Below are positions 1 through 53,465 of a DNA stretch of 54,331 nt, in pieces. The translations under genes were made by a program, and so were the position numbers. The notes beneath the pieces were generated by a model. The model did no database searches. It was given only the letters and a program-made list of their open reading frames with translations, and was not told the origin of the DNA. Position 1 is the stretch's first letter. The number at the start of each line of letters is the position of its first letter. The stretch covers positions 1-54,331 of the forward strand of contig JAHJRE010000186.1 in NCBI GenBank assembly GCA_018831055.1. The letters run 5' to 3'. The stretch is from Bacteroidota bacterium (GTDB taxonomy: Bacteria; Bacteroidota; Bacteroidia; Bacteroidales; B18-G4).

Positions 1-21
1 GGAGATCGGAGATCGGAGATA
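1..21. repeat. short tandem repeat, 7-nt unit GGAGATC
   Basis: Three head-to-tail copies of GGAGATC (the last ends in A) fill the first 21 bases and end 19 nt before the first start codon. The array may continue upstream of the window edge. It resembles in layout the other 7-8 nt intergenic arrays in this window, but the word is different. Confidence 0.7.
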
Positions 22-40
22 AATGCAAATTTAAGGAACG

Positions 41-1264
41 ATGACACAATACGTACAAATTGCATGGCGGAATCTATGGAGGAATAAGAGGAGGACACTG
101 ATCACGGTGGCTTCGGTTTTCTTTGCCCTGCTGTTGGCTCTTTTTATGCGCTCGATGCAGGTAGGCACATATGAAATGATGGAGCACGACTCGGTAAAAA
201 ACACTACGGGTTATCTTCAGGTTCAGGCCAAAGGCTATTGGGACGATAAAACCATTAACAATACTTTTGAGAACAGCCAGGGTCTGGTGGATACATTAAT
301 GGAAATTCAAGGGATAACCTGTCTTACACCCCGTCTCGAATCGTTTGCTTTGCTTTCATCGGGCAATATGACCAAAGGAGTCGCCATCATAGGCACAGAT
401 CCCGCGATAGAAGACTCGATGACTGGATTAAAAAACAGGATCATCCGGGGAACTTACTTCTCCTCAGACAGTAACTCCATACTTGTAGGGGAAGTTCTGG
501 CCCGATATCTGAAGGTTGATACCGGAGACACTCTGATACTGCTTAGCCAGGGCTATCATGGGATTACGGCAGCCGGGGAATTCATCATCCAAGGCATATT
601 CCGCTTTCCGGCCCCCATGATGAACAGTGAAGTAGCTTACCTTAAACTTCAGGATGCGCAATATTTCTATGCTGCTCCCAATCGTCTGACATCCCTGTCG
701 GTGATGATCGATGATCCCGACATGCTGGAAGATCTTCGTGAGACAATCACAGATAAAACAAGAGGAAAATATGCTGTGCTAACCTGGAAAGAGATGCTGG
801 TTGCTTTGGTGCAGAGCATTGAAAGCGACAATATCAGCGGGTGGTTCATGCTTGGCATTCTTTACCTGGTGGTTGCTTTTGGGATTTTCGGCACCATGCT
901 GATGATGACCATGGAACGAAAAAGGGAGTTTGCCGTGATGGTTTCAGTAGGGATGCAGCGTTATAAACTAACCCGGATAATCCTCCTGGAAACCTTTTTC
1001 ATAGGTTTACTCGGTATTATTGTAGCATTCCTGATAAGCCTCCCTGTGATCAACTATCTCCACCACCATCCCATTCCGCTCACAGGAGCAGCAGCAGAAG
1101 CCATGCTGGAAATGAATGCTCGTCCCATACTTCCGTTCTCCCTTGATCCGGAATTATTTATAAACCAGATCATCGTCATTGGAATACTCACGCTGCTTGC
1201 TGTTGTTTTTCCTGTGTATTACGTAAACAAATTTAATATCCTGAGGGCATTCCGGGGAAAATAA
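41..1264 (+). CDS. ABC transporter permease, FtsX/LolC-E (MacB-like) family
   Basis: This 407-aa inner-membrane protein has the four-helix FtsX layout. There is an N-terminal helix at about residues 20-42, a large periplasmic domain to about 265, then three helices near 268-290, 310-335 and 375-397. The cytoplasmic 'MERKREFAVMVSVGM' stretch after the second helix is the FtsX-family coupling segment. It starts an apparent five-gene operon; the second permease begins 21 nt downstream and a LolD-like ATPase lies further on. Such permeases act as heterodimers that use ATP hydrolysis to drive a periplasmic step such as lipoprotein release, export or peptide expulsion. The substrate cannot be told from the sequence. 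Confidence 0.88.
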   Translation: MTQYVQIAWRNLWRNKRRTLITVASVFFALLLALFMRSMQVGTYEMMEHDSVKNTTGYLQVQAKGYWDDKTINNTFENSQGLVDTLMEIQGITCLTPRLESFALLSSGNMTKGVAIIGTDPAIEDSMTGLKNRIIRGTYFSSDSNSILVGEVLARYLKVDTGDTLILLSQGYHGITAAGEFIIQGIFRFPAPMMNSEVAYLKLQDAQYFYAAPNRLTSLSVMIDDPDMLEDLRETITDKTRGKYAVLTWKEMLVALVQSIESDNISGWFMLGILYLVVAFGIFGTMLMMTMERKREFAVMVSVGMQRYKLTRIILLETFFIGLLGIIVAFLISLPVINYLHHHPIPLTGAAAEAMLEMNARPILPFSLDPELFINQIIVIGILTLLAVVFPVYYVNKFNILRAFRGK

Positions 1265-1285
1265 ACAATTAAAAAATTCAGAAAA

Positions 1286-2512
1286 ATGATCGTATCTGTA
1301 TCCTGGAAAAATATTTGGAGAAATAAAACCCGAAGCATGGTGGTTATCCTGGCCGTCGCTCTTGGGTTATTCGGAACGGTATTCATGATAGCCCTTATGA
1401 ATGGTCTGATTGACCAAAAAGTGGATGCTTCCATCAGTAATGAACTGTCGAACATTCAGATACATACCCCTGGTTTCCTGGAAGATAAATCCATACAACA
1501 TATGATGGATAATGCCGGGTTGCTTGTTGAAAAAGTAAAGAAAACCGAAGGGGTTAAGGCTGTTTGCCGGCGAACAAAATCAATGGGCATGGTCAGCACA
1601 GCAAGTTCCGGCAGCGGTGTAATGGTAAACGGTATCATTCCGCAGGAAGAAAAGATGGTGACAGACATACACAAACATACAGTGGATGGATCCTATTTTG
1701 AACAAAACTTTAAAGTAACCCCATCAATCTTTATCGGAAAAAAACTTGCAGAAAAACTGAATGCCGGAGTCGGCTCTAAAATTGTGATGACTATTCAAAG
1801 CACATCCGGAGATATCACCTACGGGCTATACCGCGTAGTAGGCATATACAAAACAGACAACGCAATGTATGACGAAGCCAATGTTTTTGTAGAAAACACA
1901 AGTCTCGTCGATTTAATTGCAGTGGATCCTGACAAATCATCTGAAATTGCCATATTACTTGAAAACAATGATCTTACCGATAAGGTAACAAGCAACCTGA
2001 AAGATTCTTTCCCGAAGCTAAGCGTTTTATCCTGGAAAGAATCCGATCCTGCTGTCTTCGCCATGATCAGCCTTATGGATCAGTTTTCCTGGTTTATGGT
2101 AGCCATAATAATGATTGCACTGGTATTTGTGATAGTTAATGCAATGTTAATGGCCATCCTGGAACGTACCAGAGAAATTGGGATGCTGATGGCCATAGGA
2201 ATGAACAAAAGGAGGGTCTTTCTGATGATAATGATGGAAACCATTTTTCTTTCGATCACCGGGGCCATTGCAGGGATATTATTGACTGTTATCACCGTTG
2301 CTTTAACTTACCAACAGGGTATCAATTTTGCCGCTTTCGCAGAAGGATTTGAATCGATTGGATACAGTGCTCTGGTTTTCCCTACTGTTAAAACGACATT
2401 TTACATTAGTATCGGAGTTATCGTGATAATAACAGCTGCTATCGCTTCGGTCTGGCCTGCCAGAAAAGCTTTGAAACTGCAACCGGCAGCGGCTGTTCGC
2501 GAAGATGCCTGA
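1286..2512 (+). CDS. ABC transporter permease, FtsX/LolC-E family (second subunit)
   Basis: This 408-aa paralogue of the preceding permease has the same topology: an N-terminal helix at about 15-37, a periplasmic domain to about 265 and three C-terminal helices. It carries the family segment 'LERTREIGMLMAIGM'. It ends in 'PARKALKLQPAAAVREDA', close to the 'P...A.r..P..ALR' ending common in FtsX-like permeases. The pair of different permeases with a single ATPase gene downstream fits a LolCDE/MacB-type complex with a heterodimeric membrane part. The exported substrate is unknown. Confidence 0.88.
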   Translation: MIVSVSWKNIWRNKTRSMVVILAVALGLFGTVFMIALMNGLIDQKVDASISNELSNIQIHTPGFLEDKSIQHMMDNAGLLVEKVKKTEGVKAVCRRTKSMGMVSTASSGSGVMVNGIIPQEEKMVTDIHKHTVDGSYFEQNFKVTPSIFIGKKLAEKLNAGVGSKIVMTIQSTSGDITYGLYRVVGIYKTDNAMYDEANVFVENTSLVDLIAVDPDKSSEIAILLENNDLTDKVTSNLKDSFPKLSVLSWKESDPAVFAMISLMDQFSWFMVAIIMIALVFVIVNAMLMAILERTREIGMLMAIGMNKRRVFLMIMMETIFLSITGAIAGILLTVITVALTYQQGINFAAFAEGFESIGYSALVFPTVKTTFYISIGVIVIITAAIASVWPARKALKLQPAAAVREDA

Positions 2513-2524
2513 TAAAATTATTAT

Positions 2525-4177
2525 ATGAATAAAAACATAAACATATTGGTCTTTATCTTTTTTGCCATGACCTGTATCACTTTTTCACTTCAGGGGCAAC
2601 CTTCTCCGGAAGAAAAGTATCAGGTTTACCGGGATCGTTTGAGAATGGAATTTATGGCAGGAATAGGCCCTGAGACAGGTTTCAGCTTACCTGCTCTGGC
2701 ACGGGATACTGTGACCGGTACCATTTTATGGTCGGATTGCACCATTGATCTGGGGCAATACATTGGCGTTCTGGGAACAGAATATCATATTCTTTCGCAG
2801 GAAGGTAAAGAGACAGGGCAAACGGTAAAGGAGCTTTATTATGCCCTGTATGCTCTTAACCGTCTGGATATTAGCGCCGAGATATATTTCGGTGGTGAAC
2901 CCAGCCTTAACGGTTTCTTTATTCGTGATGATGTAAGTACCGACTCCCTGAATATGGATTCGGTACTTTCTCGATTAAACCAGGGTTTACCGGTACCATT
3001 GATCGATTCCCTGAGGTCAGACCTGATGTCGTCAAATACGCGTGACAAAGAAGAAAGCCTTGATCAGGCCATTTTGCTGATCACAGGGCTGGGACTGGTC
3101 AGAAAGTGTGTTCCTGAAGATGTTGTTTATTCTGAAAACAATACCATTTTACCATTCCAGGATTTCGAAACCTCCCTGAGCAAAGAGGCATCCAACCAAA
3201 TCGCAAGAATCGTGAATTATATGAAAGAAGGCGATTCGGTTATTGTCAGGAGGGACACTACCGATCCAAATTTATACGGGATAATGGGTGAAAACTGGGA
3301 TTTCATTATTAAAAATCCTGTAACCTATGAAAATGTGATGCGGGGAGAAAATGCATTTCTCTTATCGGCCGGATTTGCAGGAGCGAAATACCATCTCACC
3401 GGCCAGGATTCCCCAACCACCGACACTATCCGGGAAACCACGGCAAACGAGATCTTTCAGTATCTTGAGAACTACATGATCCCGAACCAGGAAGATTTTA
3501 AAGTGATAAACCTTGATGCAATGTCAAATATATGGCCGGAAGGATTGCAGGCAGATACAACATTTACAGACTATAACGCACGGGTGTTAGGTCCCCGTTC
3601 CCGGCAGCAGGATTACGGATGGATACCTATGTTACATCAAATGGTATTCGGTGGTAAAAATTACCTGATGAGTTACCTGCCACCGGATACAATCTTTTAC
3701 AATGATCCCGAGGCGTATTATGAATACCTGTTGGAACTTGCACCTTCTGAAGGTCCATACAATTACAACGATTCTATTTATCCCAATTTCGAGTGGTCAT
3801 CAACATCAAGGACCATACACCCGGAACGGAGAGGAGAAACGGGTACTGCATTTCCGGGAAACTATAACGGACTGGATTATATGCTTTATTATAATCTTTA
3901 TCGTATTTTGTTCGAGTATCCGGTTATTATAGAGGAGATTACACCAGAAGACTTCCTTGTTTTTCCAAATCCGGCAAAAGATTATATTATGGTGTCTTAC
4001 CCGCAACCCTTCCGTCTCAAATTGACAGATACATATGGCCGTCTTCTTCAGGAGAAGCAATGCTCCCATGCGGGTGTTTACAAAATGTCACTGAATTCAT
4101 TTTCATCCGGCACCTATATTTTGATCATTTTTCCTGAGAAAGAAAAACCCATAGCAAAAAAAATAATAATACTGTAA
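2525..4177 (+). CDS. secreted protein with type IX secretion sorting domain
   Basis: The 550-aa product begins with a Sec signal peptide (residues 1-24, ending SLQGQ). Its last ~75 residues are a type A T9SS C-terminal domain: 'VFPNPAKDYIMV', then 'DTYGRLLQ', 'GVYKMSL' and 'SGTYILII'. It should therefore be exported to the periplasm by Sec and across the outer membrane by the type IX machinery, ending on the surface or released. The body (about 25-465) matches no family I recognise; it is rich in acidic and aromatic residues and has no visible catalytic motif. It sits 12 nt after the permeases and 13 nt before the ATPase, so it is probably co-transcribed with the transporter, which is an unusual place for T9SS cargo. 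Confidence 0.8.
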   Translation: MNKNINILVFIFFAMTCITFSLQGQPSPEEKYQVYRDRLRMEFMAGIGPETGFSLPALARDTVTGTILWSDCTIDLGQYIGVLGTEYHILSQEGKETGQTVKELYYALYALNRLDISAEIYFGGEPSLNGFFIRDDVSTDSLNMDSVLSRLNQGLPVPLIDSLRSDLMSSNTRDKEESLDQAILLITGLGLVRKCVPEDVVYSENNTILPFQDFETSLSKEASNQIARIVNYMKEGDSVIVRRDTTDPNLYGIMGENWDFIIKNPVTYENVMRGENAFLLSAGFAGAKYHLTGQDSPTTDTIRETTANEIFQYLENYMIPNQEDFKVINLDAMSNIWPEGLQADTTFTDYNARVLGPRSRQQDYGWIPMLHQMVFGGKNYLMSYLPPDTIFYNDPEAYYEYLLELAPSEGPYNYNDSIYPNFEWSSTSRTIHPERRGETGTAFPGNYNGLDYMLYYNLYRILFEYPVIIEEITPEDFLVFPNPAKDYIMVSYPQPFRLKLTDTYGRLLQEKQCSHAGVYKMSLNSFSSGTYILIIFPEKEKPIAKKIIIL

Positions 4178-4190
4178 ACAACTTATAATC

Positions 4191-4883
4191 ATGTCAGTAA
4201 TTGAAGTTATAAACATTGAAAAGACCTACCAGGAAACGAAAGTGCCTGTGCATGCCGTGAACGGTATTAATCTGGAGTTCGATGAAGGCGAATTCACGGC
4301 AATAGTTGGTCCTTCCGGGTCAGGCAAAACAACGCTTCTGAATATGATCGGAGGGCTGGATGCACCCACAAATGGAGAAGTATTGATCAATAACATCAAT
4401 CTGTCAACCTTACGTTCGAGGAAGCTCATCGATTTCCGGTTGAGAAACATCGGTTTTGTTTTCCAGGCATATAATCTTATACCGGTATTAACAGCATTGG
4501 AAAATGTGGCTTTCATATTGCAATTGCAGGGTTGGTCAAAGCAAAAAAGACACGATAGAGCAAAAGAATTGCTCAATGCAGTTGGTATTGATGATGAGCG
4601 TTTTCATCACCGTCCGGGTAACCTTTCGGGAGGTCAGCAGCAGCGTGTTGCCGTAGCCAGGGCGTTGGCACCCCGGCCCAAATTTATTCTGGCCGATGAA
4701 CCGACGGCCAACCTCGATTCCAGGTCCACATCCGAATTGCTTGACATCATGCAAAAGATGAATGAAGAATCAAAGATCACATTTATCTTTTCCACGCACG
4801 ACCAGCGTGTTATGGACAAGGCAAAAAGGATTATCACCATTGAAGACGGGAAAGTAAAAGAAGATCTGTCTGTCAGAAACTAA
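4191..4883 (+). CDS. ABC transporter ATP-binding protein, LolD/MacB-like
   Basis: This 230-aa nucleotide-binding subunit shows Walker A GPSGSGKT at residues 40-47, a Q-loop in 'GFVFQAYNLIPVLTALENV', the signature LSGGQQQR, Walker B 'FILADEPTANLD' and the switch histidine in 'FSTHD'. The sequence type (ETKVPVHAVNGI..., 'NLIPVLTALENV') is that of the LolD/MacB/FtsE-like group that partners FtsX-type permeases. Its partners are the two permease genes at the start of the operon, even though the T9SS gene separates them. The barrel gene follows after 5 nt. Confidence 0.93.
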   Translation: MSVIEVINIEKTYQETKVPVHAVNGINLEFDEGEFTAIVGPSGSGKTTLLNMIGGLDAPTNGEVLINNINLSTLRSRKLIDFRLRNIGFVFQAYNLIPVLTALENVAFILQLQGWSKQKRHDRAKELLNAVGIDDERFHHRPGNLSGGQQQRVAVARALAPRPKFILADEPTANLDSRSTSELLDIMQKMNEESKITFIFSTHDQRVMDKAKRIITIEDGKVKEDLSVRN

Positions 4884-4888
4884 AGAGG

Positions 4889-6085
4889 ATGAGAACAAAA
4901 ACAATTTTGCTTTTTTTCGCACTCTTCCAGGTTTCTGCCATTTATGCCGGAAACGACGGAAAGGAAAGAAAGTACTCCTTGAACGGGCATCTGCAGGATT
5001 TACAGATGGAGTGGATAGAAGACTTCAGGGGAAGCTGGCAGGATTTAAACACGATCAGCAACCGTTTCGACTTCCGTTTTTTTCCAAAGCCTTGGTTCAG
5101 CGCCCATATCGGAATGCGAAACATCCTGGAATACGGACAATTGGTTGAATACTCCAATATTTTATCAGATTTTTCAAAAGGGGAAGTATCAAGTTTACAC
5201 GACCTGATGACCAAAGATCCCGGCTATTTACAATTGACATATAGTTTAGCCGATGAGAGGTCATTTTTTGCCTATACAAGTTTTGACAGGGCAAATATTC
5301 AAATCACACAAAAAAAATTGTCCTTTACCCTGGGGCGGCAACGAATTAACTGGTCTTCCAATCTTGTATGGACACCAAACGACATTTTCAACACCTTTAA
5401 TTACTACGATTTCGATTACGTGGAGCGACCGGGTTGTGATGCGGCTCTTGTGCAGTATTACACAGGAAGCACTTCATCGCTGCAGGCAGCGGTAAAAATC
5501 GATCACGAAGAGGAGATCACCCTGGGAGCCATGTATAAATTTCTATTGAGAAACTATGATTTTCAGTTTATGGCAGGAAAAATGGATGGTGATGCCGTTG
5601 TGGGTGCGGGGTGGTCGGGTCAGGCCTGGGGTGCAGGTTTCAACGGAGAGTTATCCTATTTTCGTGATTTGGACAATTTCAGTGATACATCAGGCCAATT
5701 GGTAGCTTCGGCGGGGCTCAACTACACTTTAAACCGCTGGTATTTTCATATGGCAGGACTTCTTAACACCGATGGAACAACCGGGCCTGCCAGTATGGGT
5801 AATTTCATTGATTTCAACCGGAACATCAGTGCCAAGACCCTCACCCTGGCCAGATATTCTGTTTTTGGGGAGATCTCATACCAGGTCAGTCCTCTCATCC
5901 TGGCTGATGCCTCGGCAATATATAATCCTAACGATAAATCCTTATATCTGGGGCCCTCAGTTGATTTTTCCCTGACTGATAACATTGGTTTGCTTGTAAG
6001 CGGTCAAATTTTCCTGGGAAACGAAGGCACCGAGTTCGGGGATTATGGAACAATGCTATATTTGCGGCTTAAATGGTCATTTTAA
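4889..6085 (+). CDS. outer-membrane beta-barrel protein, DUF1302-like porin
   Basis: The 398-aa protein has a signal peptide (about 1-21, ending IYAG) followed by alternating amphipathic strands and a C-terminal 'LRLKWSF', the aromatic end expected of a BAM-assembled barrel. The stretch 'LGRQRINWSSNLVWTPNDIF' followed by 'DFDYVERPGCDA' resembles the conserved core of DUF1302/alginate-export-like barrels (R-x-NWG...P.D...RPG.DA). It starts 5 nt after the ATPase stop, so it is the last gene of the ABC operon. A natural inference is that it provides the outer-membrane step for whatever the ABC complex handles. No terminator hairpin follows it before the rpsO promoter. Confidence 0.7.
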   Translation: MRTKTILLFFALFQVSAIYAGNDGKERKYSLNGHLQDLQMEWIEDFRGSWQDLNTISNRFDFRFFPKPWFSAHIGMRNILEYGQLVEYSNILSDFSKGEVSSLHDLMTKDPGYLQLTYSLADERSFFAYTSFDRANIQITQKKLSFTLGRQRINWSSNLVWTPNDIFNTFNYYDFDYVERPGCDAALVQYYTGSTSSLQAAVKIDHEEEITLGAMYKFLLRNYDFQFMAGKMDGDAVVGAGWSGQAWGAGFNGELSYFRDLDNFSDTSGQLVASAGLNYTLNRWYFHMAGLLNTDGTTGPASMGNFIDFNRNISAKTLTLARYSVFGEISYQVSPLILADASAIYNPNDKSLYLGPSVDFSLTDNIGLLVSGQIFLGNEGTEFGDYGTMLYLRLKWSF

Positions 6086-6168: not shown

Positions 6169-6438
6169 ATGTACTTAACAACTGAAATCAAGCAGAATTT
6201 TTTCAAAGATCACGGTAAGTCGGAATTTGACACCGGTTCAGCTGAAGGGCAGATTGCGCTTTTTACATACAGGATCAAACATCTTACAGAGCATCTGAAA
6301 GAAAACAAGAAAGACACTGCAACCCGCAGGTCGTTGGTATTGTTGGTCGGCAAAAGAAGGAAGTTGCTTGATTATCTAAAGAACACGGAAATTGCACGGT
6401 ACCGCTCCATCATCAAGGAATTGGGTATCCGTAAGTAA
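6169..6438 (+). CDS. rpsO: 30S ribosomal protein S15
   Basis: The product is 89 aa, the standard S15 length, beginning MYLTTEIKQNFFKDHG. It has the family core 'DTGSAEGQIALFTYRIKHLTEHL', 'RRSLVLLVGKRRKLLDYL' and 'RYRSIIKELGIRK'. It binds 16S rRNA helices in the small-subunit platform. The ATG at 6169 was chosen because the longer in-frame start lies inside the promoter and family members start here. It is followed by an intrinsic terminator and then pnp, the common bacterial rpsO-pnp order. Confidence 0.97.
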   Translation: MYLTTEIKQNFFKDHGKSEFDTGSAEGQIALFTYRIKHLTEHLKENKKDTATRRSLVLLVGKRRKLLDYLKNTEIARYRSIIKELGIRK

Positions 6439-6457
6439 GATATATTTTGCACCGGAC

Positions 6458-6488
6458 AAAAAAGGCAATTTAGGAATTGCCTTTTTTT
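6458..6488 (+). terminator. intrinsic terminator between rpsO and pnp
   Basis: AAAAAAGGCAATT, loop TAGG, AATTGCCTTTTTTT forms a stem of at least eight base pairs running into a T-tract. It lies 20 nt after the rpsO stop and 35 nt before the pnp ATG, so pnp may depend on read-through or on its own start within the short gap. Confidence 0.88.
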
Positions 6489-6522
6489 GTATTTTTCTAT
6501 TAGGCATTTACAAATTATTCAA

Positions 6523-8664
6523 ATGACAGTAAAAGGTATTACGAAATCGTTCGACCTTGGAGGGAAAACGGTTTCAATTGAAACCGGCCGACTGGCGAAG
6601 CAGGCCGACGGTTCAGCTGTGGTAAAGATGGGCAACACCATGTTGCTTGCCACGGTGGTAGCCAAGAAAGACCCCCTGGAGGGAGCAGATTTTCTACCCC
6701 TTACGGTAGAGTATAAAGAAAAATATGCCGCAACCGGCAAATTCCCGGGTGGCTTTTTCAAGCGTGAGGCTCGGCCCTCGGAGTATGAAATCCTCATTGC
6801 CCGTTTGGTCGACAGGGCCTTACGTCCCATATTCCCTGATAATTACCATTGCGATACACAGGTACTCATCACCTTGATATCCGGAGATAAGGATGTTGCT
6901 CCCGATGCACTTGCTGCCCTTGCCGCTTCATCGGCACTGGCGGTATCCGATATTCCGTTCAATGGACCGATCTCTGAAGTAAGGGTTGCAAAGATACAGA
7001 ACGAATACATTATCAATCCTACCATTTCATCATTGGAGCATGCCACATTGGACCTGATGGTGGCAGCTACAATTGACAATATCGTCATGGTAGAAGGAGA
7101 AATGAAGGAAGTTTCCGAACAGGAAATGCTGGAAGCTCTTAAAATCGCTCACGAAGCCATTCGCATTCAATGCAACGCGCAACTTGAACTTGCCGAAATG
7201 GCAGGAAAAGCCGGGGCAAAAAGAGAAATTGAACCGGAAAAGGAAGATGAAGAGCTTCGTCAGCGACTCATTGAAGCCACAGGTGACAAGGTCTATGACC
7301 TGGCCAAATCCTTCATTAACAACAAAAAAATAAGGAATGAAAAATTCAGCGAAGTTGAAAAAGAATTCCTGAGCACCTTCTCCGAAGAAGAGCTGGAAGA
7401 AAAAGAGGCTCTGATAAAAAAATATTTCCACGATCTTCAGAAAGAGATCATCCGCAAGATGGTACTTTACGAAAAGGTAAGGTTGGATGGACGAAAAACA
7501 GATGAAATACGCGATATCTGGTGTGAAGTGGATTATTTGCCTTCAGCGCATGGCTCTGCCGTATTCACACGCGGCGAAACACAGTCTCTGGTAACAGTAA
7601 CTCTTGGCACCAAGCTTGATGAACAGGTCATTGATGGAGCCATTATCGAAGGCACCAGTAATTTCATCCTGCATTATAACTTCCCGGGTTTTTCAACCGG
7701 AGAGGTAAAGCCCATACGGAGCACATCCCGTCGGGAGATTGGCCATGGAAACCTTGCCATGAGGGCGCTTAAACAAGTTATTCCCAATGGGGAAGAAAAC
7801 CCATACACCATAAGGATAGTTTCAGATATACTCGAATCCAACGGTTCGTCATCCATGGCAACGGTTTGCGGTGGCACCCTCGCACTGATGGATGCCGGTG
7901 TCAGGATTACCCGCCCGGTTTCAGGAATTGCCATGGGTATGATCAGTGATGCTGAAACAGGAAAGTATGCTATCCTGTCAGACATCCTTGGCGATGAAGA
8001 CCACCTTGGTGACATGGACTTCAAAGTTACCGGAACACGAAATGGAATCACCGCCTGCCAGATGGACATAAAAGTTGAAGGCTTATCCTATGAAGTATTG
8101 GAAGAAGCTCTGGAACAAGCAAAAAAAGGAAGGATACATATTCTCGACATCATGGAGAAGACCATTTCCGAACCCAGGGCCGATTATAAAGATCATGTTC
8201 CCAGGATAGAAAAGATGATCGTTAACCGTGAATTCATCGGAGCCATCATAGGACCTTCAGGTAAGGTGATCCAGGAAATTCAGCGCGAAACCAACACAAC
8301 CATTGTAATTGAGGAAGAAGGAGAATATGGAATAGTGGATATAGTTTCAAGTGACAAGGAATCTATAGAAAAGGCCAAGCTGAGGATACGCCGGATCGTG
8401 GCTGTACCGGAAGTTGGGGAAGTATACCTTGGAACTGTAAAAAACATCACAACTTTTGGTGCTTTTGTGGAGATTTTACCGGGTAAAGACGGGCTTCTTC
8501 ACATATCGGAAATCGACTGGAAAAGGCTGAAGGATGTAGAAAGCGTGTTAAAGGTGGGAGATCAGATTGAGGTAAAGCTGATTGGCGTGGATGCTAAAAC
8601 GGGAAAGCTGAAGCTTTCACGTAAGGTATTGCTTCCTCAGCCACCAAGGCAAAATCAGGATTGA
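6523..8664 (+). CDS. pnp: polyribonucleotide nucleotidyltransferase (PNPase)
   Basis: The 713-aa enzyme degrades RNA 3' to 5' by phosphorolysis and can add tails. Domains in order: first RNase PH domain (about 1-140, '[27 protein letters not shown]'), the helical linker (about 240-310), second RNase PH domain (about 320-550, with '[16 protein letters not shown]' metal/active-site residues), KH domain (about 564-620, '[17 protein letters not shown]') and S1 domain (about 627-700, '[21 protein letters not shown]'). The length is normal. The ATG at 6523 was preferred over an upstream in-frame ATG at 6487 that overlaps the terminator T-tract. Confidence 0.97.
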
Positions 8665-8709
8665 AACAAAAACATAGCTTGATTCGTACAATTGCAGCAT
8701 AATCCTTAT

Positions 8710-8717
8710 TATTTTTG
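8710..8717 (+). promoter_or_regulatory. putative -7 box (TATTTTTG) for rpoD
   Basis: TATTTTTG fits TAnnTTTG and lies about 100 nt upstream of the rpoD start in a 153-nt gap. The nearest TTG (8692-8694) gives only a 15-nt spacer, so the -33 part is weak. Confidence 0.45.
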
Positions 8718-8817
8718 TGACCGAAAATTTTTAAACTTTCAATAATAGGATAGAAATTGAGCCAGATGTTTATGTGGAATCAATTATCACAAAACATTTC
8801 ATAACCAAAATCATTCT

Positions 8818-9681
8818 ATGAGGCAACTAAAGATCACCAAGCAGGTAACCAACCGTGAAACCGCGTCTCTCGACAAGTATTTGCAAGAGATAGGCAAGGT
8901 TGAGTTGCTAACGGCTGAGGAAGAAGTAACGCTCGCCCAGCGTATTAAACAAGGTGACAGGCTGGCTCTTGAAAAACTGACCAAAGCGAACCTGCGGTTT
9001 GTGGTGTCGGTATCCAAGCAATATCAGAATCAGGGTTTGAGCCTCCCCGACCTTATCAATGAAGGTAATCTGGGGTTGATCAAGGCCGCCCAGCGTTTCG
9101 ATGAAACGAGGGGTTTTAAATTCATCTCTTATGCCGTTTGGTGGATCCGCCAATCGATACTCCAGGCTTTGGCAGAACAATCAAGGATCGTAAGGCTGCC
9201 GTTAAACAAAATCGGCTCCATCAACAAGATCAACAAAGCTTACGCCAAGCTGGAGCAGGATAATGAAAGGGAACCCAAGGCAGAAGAGATAGCTGAAATG
9301 CTCGACATACCCGAAACCGAGGTGAAGGAATCATTAAGGAATTCCGGAAGACATGTTTCAATGGATGCTCCTCTTATCCAGGATGAAGAAAACACAATGT
9401 ATGATGTGTTGAAATCGGATGAAGGACCTACACCTGAAACAGAACTGATGTATGAATCCCTTCGCAAGGAAATTGACCGTGCCATCTCCACCCTGACACC
9501 CAGGGAGGCAGATGTGATCCGGCTCTACTTTGGTCTGAACAGCAAGCATCCCATGACACTGGAAGAGATCGGAGAAAAATTCGATCTGACCAGAGAAAGG
9601 GTGCGGCAAATCAAAGAGAAGGCCATTCGTCGTTTAAAACACACTTCCCGAAGCAAAATTTTAAAGACATATCTGGGATAG
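8818..9681 (+). CDS. rpoD: RNA polymerase primary sigma factor, Bacteroidota type
   Basis: The 287-aa protein begins [21 protein letters not shown] and goes straight into region 1.2 (about 15-45). Regions 2.1-2.4 follow ('[21 protein letters not shown]', '[21 protein letters not shown]'), then region 3 and region 4 with the helix-turn-helix '[22 protein letters not shown]'. It lacks the N-terminal region 1.1 of E. coli sigma-70, as usual in Bacteroidota, whose primary sigma reads -33/-7 promoters of the kind found throughout this window. A strong terminator follows immediately. Confidence 0.96.
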
Positions 9682-53082: not shown

Positions 53083-53169
53083 GGAGGAATGGCAGAGCGG
53101 TCGAATGCGGCGGTCTTGAAAACCGTTGACCGTTTACGCGGTCCGGGGGTTCGAATCCCTCTTCCTCCG
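53083..53169 (+). tRNA. tRNA-Ser (anticodon UGA)
   Basis: The seven-base acceptor stem GGAGGAA/TTCCTCC, the anticodon arm GCGGT-CTTGAAA-ACCGT giving anticodon TGA, a long variable arm and the T-arm GGGGG-TTCGAAT-CCCTC form a complete class II serine tRNA reading UCA. The CCA end is not encoded (GCAA follows). A terminator hairpin lies just downstream. Confidence 0.95.
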
Positions 53170-53183
53170 CAATATTAAACATG

Positions 53184-53209
53184 AAACCCGGCCAAACCGG
53201 GTTTTTTTT
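53184..53209 (+). terminator. intrinsic terminator after tRNA-Ser(UGA)
   Basis: AAACCCGG, loop CCAAA, CCGGGTTT then a T-run make an 8-bp stem, 14 nt after the tRNA. Confidence 0.88.
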
Positions 53210-53212
53210 ATT

Positions 53213-53300
53213 ATATGGCTATATGGTTATATGGTTAGGTGGCTATATGACTATATGGCTATATGGCTATATGGTTAGATGGTTAGATGGTTAGGTGGTT
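53213..53300. repeat. tandem array, 8-nt unit ATATGGYT
   Basis: Eleven head-to-tail 8-nt units run in phase from just after the tRNA terminator. They are mainly ATATGGCT and ATATGGTT, with AGGTGGCT, AGATGGTT and AGGTGGTT variants. No coding frame or spacers are present. A GC-rich hairpin element follows 20 nt later. Confidence 0.9.
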
Positions 53301-53320
53301 AGCTCAGCAAAGGAATATAA

Positions 53321-53358
53321 CCCCGGCTTTCGCCGGGGCAGGCCCTGGCGAAACAGGG
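53321..53358. repeat. GC-rich hairpin element, related to the one at 10386
   Basis: CCCCGGC-TTTC-GCCGGGG (53321-53338) is a perfect 7-bp hairpin; a second, CCCTG-GCGAAA-CAGGG (53344-53358), follows. The word CCCGGCTTTCGCC is shared with the palindromic element at 10386-10455. No T-tract follows in either direction, so a terminator role is not supported. Confidence 0.65.
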
Positions 53359-53373
53359 ATAATTAATTATTGT

Positions 53374-53465
53374 TGGCGGAGAAAGAGGGATTCGAACCCC
53401 CGGTCCCGCTATCGCGGGACAACTGATTTCGAGTCAGCCCCGTTCGACCGCTCCGGCATTTCTCC
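53374..53465 (-). tRNA. tRNA-Ser (anticodon CGA)
   Basis: On the minus strand the acceptor stem GGAGAAA/TTTCTCC with discriminator G and encoded CCA is seen, with anticodon arm GCTGA-CTCGAAA-TCAGT (anticodon CGA, reading UCG). The variable arm has a 7-bp stem (GTCCCGC-GATA-GCGGGAC), and the T-arm is GGGGG-TTCGAAT-CCCTC. It is convergent with tRNA-Ser(UGA). A -7 box TAATTTTG lies upstream on the minus strand at 53478-53471. Confidence 0.95.

Follow-up and report, generated by a model that had tools for sequence, protein, structure and literature searches.

What is an outer-membrane beta-barrel doing in one tight run of genes with an ATP-binding cassette (ABC) transporter and a protein exported by the type IX secretion system (T9SS)? 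The question is posed by the beginning of a Bacteroidales contig (C186, JAHJRE010000186.1 of assembly GCA_018831055.1), the whole of which (54331 bases) is hereafter called the window. A preliminary description had listed two FtsX-type permeases, the T9SS cargo, the ATPase, and a DUF1302-like barrel as a tightly packed set. Indeed, the coordinates confirm five open reading frames (ORFs), all on the plus strand and separated by 21, 12, 13, and 5 nt in order, and domain matches in Pfam and NCBIfam agree with the naming of the permeases, the ATPase, and the T9SS cargo. On balance, we think that the window carries five genes of an operon for export across the envelope, which comprises seven genes and is headed by a TetR gene in the source genome. 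By analogy with known systems, the operon would, with somewhat better than even prospects, use ATP to bring an apolar ligand, that is, a fatty or hydrophobic molecule, from the inner membrane to the outer one, and we lean toward regarding it as the ATP-driven counterpart of resistance-nodulation-division (RND) cassettes of the AmeABCD kind.

The two remaining genes, a LolA_like carrier and the TetR regulator, lie beyond the contig edge and were missed in the earlier gene list, the five entries of which stand. In a genome of the same genus (G002, locus L061), a TetR-type regulator and a 253-amino-acid LolA_like protein, matching PF17131 at 193.9 bits in Pfam, precede permease 1. The ortholog in the window's own genome, with 78% identity, is found on another contig (C120:22100-22831), where the match stops 52 bases short of the contig end and a TetR gene stands directly before it; the Pfam scores of the C120 genes are 188.8 bits for PF17131 and 63.7 bits for TetR_N. 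GGAGATCG repeats close C120, and GGAGATC repeats, which are the same repeat, open the window. Since the contig with tetR and the carrier and the window both end in this repeat, we infer that a single operon was probably broken there by the assembler. The LolA_like carrier matches the solved structures 9tp6, 3buu, 4z48, and 3bk5. The stretch that separates idi from tetR in the source genome (L120:458-832) contains low-complexity tandem repeats with an SLLPSP run in one frame, and these coding repeats are possibly related to the GGAGATC repeat of the contig edge.

The conservation of the operon was surveyed in three sets of loci, with ORFs called mechanically at a minimum of 90 amino acids. The named-genome set comprised the best 80 of at least 577 loci from a scan with the barrel profile; its labels are mostly Bacteroidota or subgroups thereof, with some Melioribacteraceae, Ignavibacteriales, Chlorobi, and Acidobacteriota, and with a few others that may be mislabeled assemblies. 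The second set held 43 order-level relatives. The third set held 60 of the 68 genomes that have the barrel (E ≤ 1e-20) among 296 of the phylum; it omits the genome of the window itself and the seven matches that scored lowest. Restriction to loci with at least 5.5 kb upstream left 59 named loci (20 short ones dropped, plus L202, which has no recognized barrel), 34 relatives (9 short loci dropped), and 53 phylum loci (5 short ones dropped, plus L288 and L309, which have no recognized barrel). The LolA_like gene, two permeases, and the ATPase precede the barrel on the same strand in 53/59, 26/34, and 44/53 of these loci, respectively. The unit that is conserved consists of LolA_like, two permeases, the ATPase, and the barrel, so that pump, carrier, and barrel come together in one operon, complete in most of the phylum loci. 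From the five-gene order of the preliminary description, the permeases, the ATPase, and the barrel are thus retained, together with the carrier, whereas the T9SS gene is not.

The product of this T9SS gene carries a Por_Secre_tail domain at residues 479-549 (PF18962, 33.6 bits for a cut-off of 27) and barely passes TIGR04183 of NCBIfam (23.9 versus 23), a model matched at E ≤ 0.01 by 6/6 members of the alignment, the window included. Upstream of the sorting domain lies an uncharacterized core of about residues 30-470. GldM/PorM, the only part of the T9SS machinery that was sought, gave partial matches on two contigs, scoring at best 133.6 and 100.5 bits and thus below the cut-off of 180 in both cases. 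The gene is found in the operon in 7 of the 9 genomes of the window's family, with 57-67% identity between the proteins; the contig stops inside it in G008, and in G003 and G007 permease 2 is directly followed by the ATPase. This particular gene was seen in none of the operon loci outside this family in the sets examined. Among 94 permease-to-ATPase intervals, 80 are direct and the other 14 contain either the T9SS gene (7 intervals, representing five genomes, two of which are listed twice) or ORFs of 123-146 amino acids (7 intervals). This total, like the 104 ATPase-to-barrel intervals mentioned below, may count twice the five genomes shared by the relatives and named sets (L061/L124, L066/L128, L074/L172, L075/L168, and L076/L179).

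The core domain also occurs elsewhere in the class, outside the operon: no operon gene lies within about 1.5 kb on either side of it in 29/29 of the best loci, the window's excluded, nor in the stretches examined around ten further core-domain loci (L104-L113, 10/10). An initial tally that placed the T9SS protein in 68/99 genomes consisted mostly of sorting-domain matches. As to fold, a PDB sequence search with the profile of the protein returned sorting domains, other chains having E values of 0.14 or worse, and Pfam found no domain shared by 13 relatives of the core except Por_Secre_tail; an AlphaFold2 model from only 3 sequences reached a predicted local distance difference test (pLDDT) score of 35 and was not used for a fold search.

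The preliminary description had raised the possibility that this surface-exported protein takes part in transport as an extracellular component. Its retention and similarity within the family speak for this idea, as does the presence of other secreted-looking proteins in operons elsewhere. Nevertheless, the gene is missing from the operon in most relatives, including two within the family, an outcome that the preliminary description itself had named as refuting. Its core domain is found away from the operon in other places, and one would not expect almost all relatives to do without a real part of the machine. We consider such a role very improbable and rejected the protein as a core part of the route on grounds of distribution. 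Because the gene is confined to 7/9 genomes of one family and was seen in no operon locus outside, its sequence and distribution identify it as a putative lineage-specific surface accessory that is co-encoded with the operon.

The other secreted-looking proteins are found between the ATPase and the barrel. In 20 of 104 such intervals, a CAP-like protein (SCP/YkwD type) of 216-232 amino acids is encoded, related to that of L151 by phmmer; Pfam verified the CAP domain in L148, and in L151 it is below the cut-off. These loci, which include L148, L151, L153, L154, and L157, with a related ORF in L147, are largely in records labeled Prolixibacteraceae, a family to which we take the further genera to belong as well. 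L126 encodes a different T9SS-sorted protein, of leucine-rich/receptor-L type, at positions 1082-2212. The inserted proteins may reflect repeated recruitment of surface proteins or a mere tolerance of insertions. In L171 (5169-6263) and L185 (6857-7957), the same place is taken by a membrane protein with a C terminus that looks adenylate-cyclase-like, and short ORFs of 122-144 amino acids, presumably four-helix bundles by their look, lie between operon genes in L158, L165, L175, L182, and L129.

What kind of pump does the conserved unit contain? Both permeases have FtsX and MacB_PCD domains, and the ATPase has an ABC_tran domain (Pfam) and the sequences GPSGSGKT, LSGGQQQR, and LADEPT, which we take to be its ATPase motifs. 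Among solved structures, LolF is nearest to permease 2, followed by other FtsX-type permeases, including YtrF, LolC/E, and MacB. Several loci have an additional gene of the permease 1 type. The relatedness of the permeases to LolC/E/F and of the ATPase to LolD, together with a carrier of the LolA superfamily, raises the possibility of a second Lol system, conditionally regulated, that delivers certain lipoproteins either to the outer membrane or to the cell surface, which they would reach through the barrel. A similarly composed cluster of Borrelia, BBJ23-29, which combines ABC, LolA-like, and Omp85 parts, has been proposed to handle non-polar ligands, possibly lipoproteins (PMC13078400). As described, the cluster differs from the operon studied here by an Omp85 rather than a DUF1302-like barrel, by two tetratricopeptide repeat proteins, and by a single permease gene, and no TetR is named in it (PMC13078400).

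Neither permease reaches the 362.45-bit cut-off of lolCE (TIGR02212; 112.3 and 129.6 bits), and the ATPase remains below that of LolD (TIGR02211; 232.8 versus 307.75 bits). In this phylum, however, the lolCE cut-off discriminates poorly and the test is weak, because the other LolC/E-like permease of the source genome (C152) also falls below it, at 170.8 bits. The existence of the C152 permease suggests that lipoprotein release is served separately. Further points speak against lipoproteins as cargo: the carrier belongs to PF17131, the copy in the relative scoring 19.7 of 100 bits with LolA1_Flavo, and no constant lipoprotein gene occurs among the labeled operon genes, lipoprotein signals as such not having been searched for. 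Compared with LolCDE/LolF-LolA, the operon has the same ABC architecture and carrier superfamily but no LolB among its seven genes, and it includes a barrel and a TetR gene. Altogether, a second Lol system seems to us a reasonable but rather unlikely alternative to export of an apolar ligand. The operon shares the FtsX/MacB_PCD permease fold with MacAB-TolC but has a separate ATPase and two permeases, and a family scan of the seven operon genes found no adaptor and no TolC among them.

The barrel connects this pump with RND systems. The preliminary description had called it DUF1302-like, which holds at the level of the family and is based on relatives: the window protein has no match of its own in Pfam or NCBIfam (the gathering score of PF06980 is 23.2 bits), and 13/49 members of the family alignment match PF06980 (DUF1302) at E ≤ 1, the best at 1.5e-6. 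Invariant residues of the family cluster around the GRQR-NW and W-PND-FN stretches. A cassette of the order TetR, MMPL, LolA_like, and DUF1302 occurs in genomes of the same order and of the window's genus, whole in L116 and L117 and partly seen in L115, L118, and L119. Four barrels of these RND cassettes pass PF06980 (48.5, 47.1, 43, and 52.9 bits), and in a profile-profile comparison they match the family of the window barrel along its full length (probability 98.4, E = 6.9e-15). The MMPL cassettes L116 and L117 thus have the same carrier family, a related barrel, and a TetR gene in front, and they differ from the ABC operon in their RND energizer. That an ABC pump takes the place of an RND pump, as had been supposed from the window's genes, is well supported. 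The contrast between the two cassettes suggests that one energizer can replace another without a change in the later steps.

Among known systems, AmeABCD of Castellaniella defragrans serves the efflux of apolar monoterpenes, and deletion of the cassette reduces monoterpene tolerance (PMC6394551). Like the operon described here, in which PF17131 is encoded both on C120, as the presumed upstream part, and in the relative L061, AmeABCD co-encodes a DUF1302 outer-membrane protein, a LolA-superfamily periplasmic protein, and an inner-membrane pump (PMC6394551). There are also differences: AmeD is an HAE3 RND pump and AmeB a DUF1329-type protein of 451 amino acids (PMC6394551), where we find a two-permease ABC pump with its ATPase and a PF17131 protein of 255 amino acids, respectively; and no AmeC-like gene is found among the seven operon genes. 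In Porphyromonas gingivalis, PG1178-81 is described as a TetR, an MMPL protein, a lipoprotein-sorting protein, and a fourth protein named hypothetical, and by likeness of description it resembles the RND sibling (PMC10434189). In Flavobacterium, LolA2 and LolB2 are encoded in the flexirubin locus and have been suggested to participate in the movement of this pigment or its precursors, or of lipoproteins encoded there (PMC11885536). No paper among the literature matches listed describes the ABC version in Bacteroidota. The T9SS-free conserved unit is a variant of the known systems made of pump, carrier, and barrel.

Our working model for this export route is as follows. The ABC part would extrude the ligand from the inner membrane, as the Lol and Mac machines do, and pass it to the LolA_like protein, which would carry it across the periplasm; the DUF1302-related barrel would then take it into or through the outer membrane, and TetR would release the operon in the presence of the ligand or upon membrane stress. 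To our knowledge, the delivery to the outer membrane of apolar molecules and of lipids other than lipoproteins and lipopolysaccharide is a largely open question in Bacteroidota.

Could the same parts work in the inward direction? The AlphaFold2 model of the barrel, built from 49 sequences (pLDDT 90.3), has 19 strand segments, and the closest solved folds are Occ/OprD porins (best Z 23.9, root mean square deviation [rmsd] 3.2, 304 residues aligned). These are followed by chitoporin (Z 23.5, rmsd 3.4, 320 aligned), MOMP (Z 22.5, rmsd 4.8, 308 aligned), AlgE (Z 22.2, rmsd 3.7, 299 aligned), and Wzi (Z 20.4, rmsd 3.5, 280 aligned), rows that differ by a Z of less than 1 being ties. The barrels of Occ and AlgE are 18-stranded. 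Searching PDB sequences with the profile of the barrel yielded no match at E ≤ 10. The porin-like appearance of the model is consistent with an acquisition operon in which barrel and carrier gather a hydrophobic compound, for example one linked to haem or iron. In support of this, the RND-like operon of P. gingivalis is reported to be among the genes with the strongest induction when iron or haemin is limiting (PMC10434189, PMC10470040), and because of this induction a haem- or iron-related ligand deserves to be kept in mind. However, induction under limitation would fit the export of a chelator equally well. Moreover, as far as we know, ABC transporters of type VII (MacB, LolCDE, and LolF) function in extrusion and not in uptake, and we regard acquisition as doubtful.

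The neighborhood of the operon offers a candidate ligand for the export route. In the window's genome, idi (NF002995, 170.3 versus 127 bits) lies upstream of the operon and divergent from it (L120), as it does in G006 (L067), L124, L310, L130, L139, L141, and L143, and a divergent upstream crtI is found in L135, L142, and L168/L316 (NF058655; 693, 667, and 735 bits, respectively, versus 640). Altogether, idi or crtI adjoins the operon in some Bacteroidales, at 9/69 distinct loci; this number excludes the window's own genome and L067, with the duplicates L311, L316, and L317 merged with L124, L168, and L179. Beyond these nine, L327 carries crtB at a greater distance upstream, together with a short fragment resembling crtI. 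The L316 cluster consists of crtI, crtB, a gene for a 181-amino-acid protein, idi, a fatty-acid-hydroxylase-type gene, and a lycopene cyclase gene, and the window's genome groups crtI, crtB, a fatty-acid-hydroxylase-type gene, and a lycopene cyclase gene on contig C9, with idi not adjacent.

Several observations weigh against the export reading and its possible isoprenoid ligand. First, the window barrel lacks a Pfam match, and its Occ/OprD-like model would also be compatible with uptake. Second, the barrel stands without any partner gene in 12 loci (3/59 named, 5/34 relatives, and 4/53 phylum), and this family of barrels is therefore not confined to operons with the pump. Third, a same-strand TetR gene is not constant (43/59, 17/34, and 15/53 in the same sets, or 46/59 named loci on either strand); TetR is divergent in several phylum loci, and a MarR-type gene takes its place in L253. 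This inconstancy leaves our estimate unchanged, because the core claim does not rest on TetR. Fourth, idi, crtI, and crtB were found in 0/60 phylum loci, within at most about 14.5 kb upstream and less at contig ends. Finally, CrtB (E ≤ 1e-30, a threshold that may overlook diverged phytoene synthases) is present in 12/68 barrel genomes versus 19.3 expected (Fisher p = 0.03, with species that are not independent). Carotenoids as the general substrate were rejected on these last two counts. The isoprenoid link is real for some Bacteroidales, among loci that are not independent, and is not a general rule; in those bacteria, the candidate substrate with the most support is an isoprenoid or carotenoid. 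A more specific proposal, namely, a dedicated ATP-driven route by which isoprenoid lipids, for example carotenoids, would travel in Bacteroidales from the inner membrane to the outer one, with TetR head-to-head with idi or carotenoid genes and the T9SS protein joining in one family, strikes us as unlikely.

Features at the start of the window, with the basis of each assignment
Feature	Coordinates	Strand	Basis
GGAGATC tandem repeat	1..20	no strand	contig edge
FtsX/MacB_PCD-type ABC permease 1, LolC/E/F-like	41..1264	+	Pfam, NCBIfam
FtsX/MacB_PCD-type ABC permease 2, LolC/E/F-like	1286..2512	+	Pfam, NCBIfam; best solved relative LolF 9w37, E 4.8e-20
Lineage-specific secreted protein, T9SS type A sorting domain	2525..4177	+	Pfam, NCBIfam, alignment
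ABC ATPase, LolD-like	4191..4883	+	Pfam, NCBIfam, motifs
Outer-membrane beta-barrel, DUF1302-related family, porin-like model of ~18 strands	4889..6085	+	alignment, model, profile comparison

Other genes near the operon were noted as well. In L256, L261, L266-L269, and similar loci, all of one family, the operon lies beside or inside an apparent histidine biosynthesis operon, the his gene names being those we take to apply from the L256 sequence and the other loci being judged by gene sizes; these neighbors were weighed as a functional clue and then discounted as housekeeping genes. Downstream of the barrel (6169-9681 of the window) follow genes resembling those for ribosomal protein S15, polynucleotide phosphorylase (PNPase), and the primary sigma factor, of which the first and last are presumptive names and the PNPase name comes from a family scan of the relative L061. 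In 16 of the clustered loci, a PNPase-like gene is the first or second ORF that follows the barrel. At the far end of the window (53083-53465), two tRNA-Ser genes (TGA and CGA) stand in opposite orientations.

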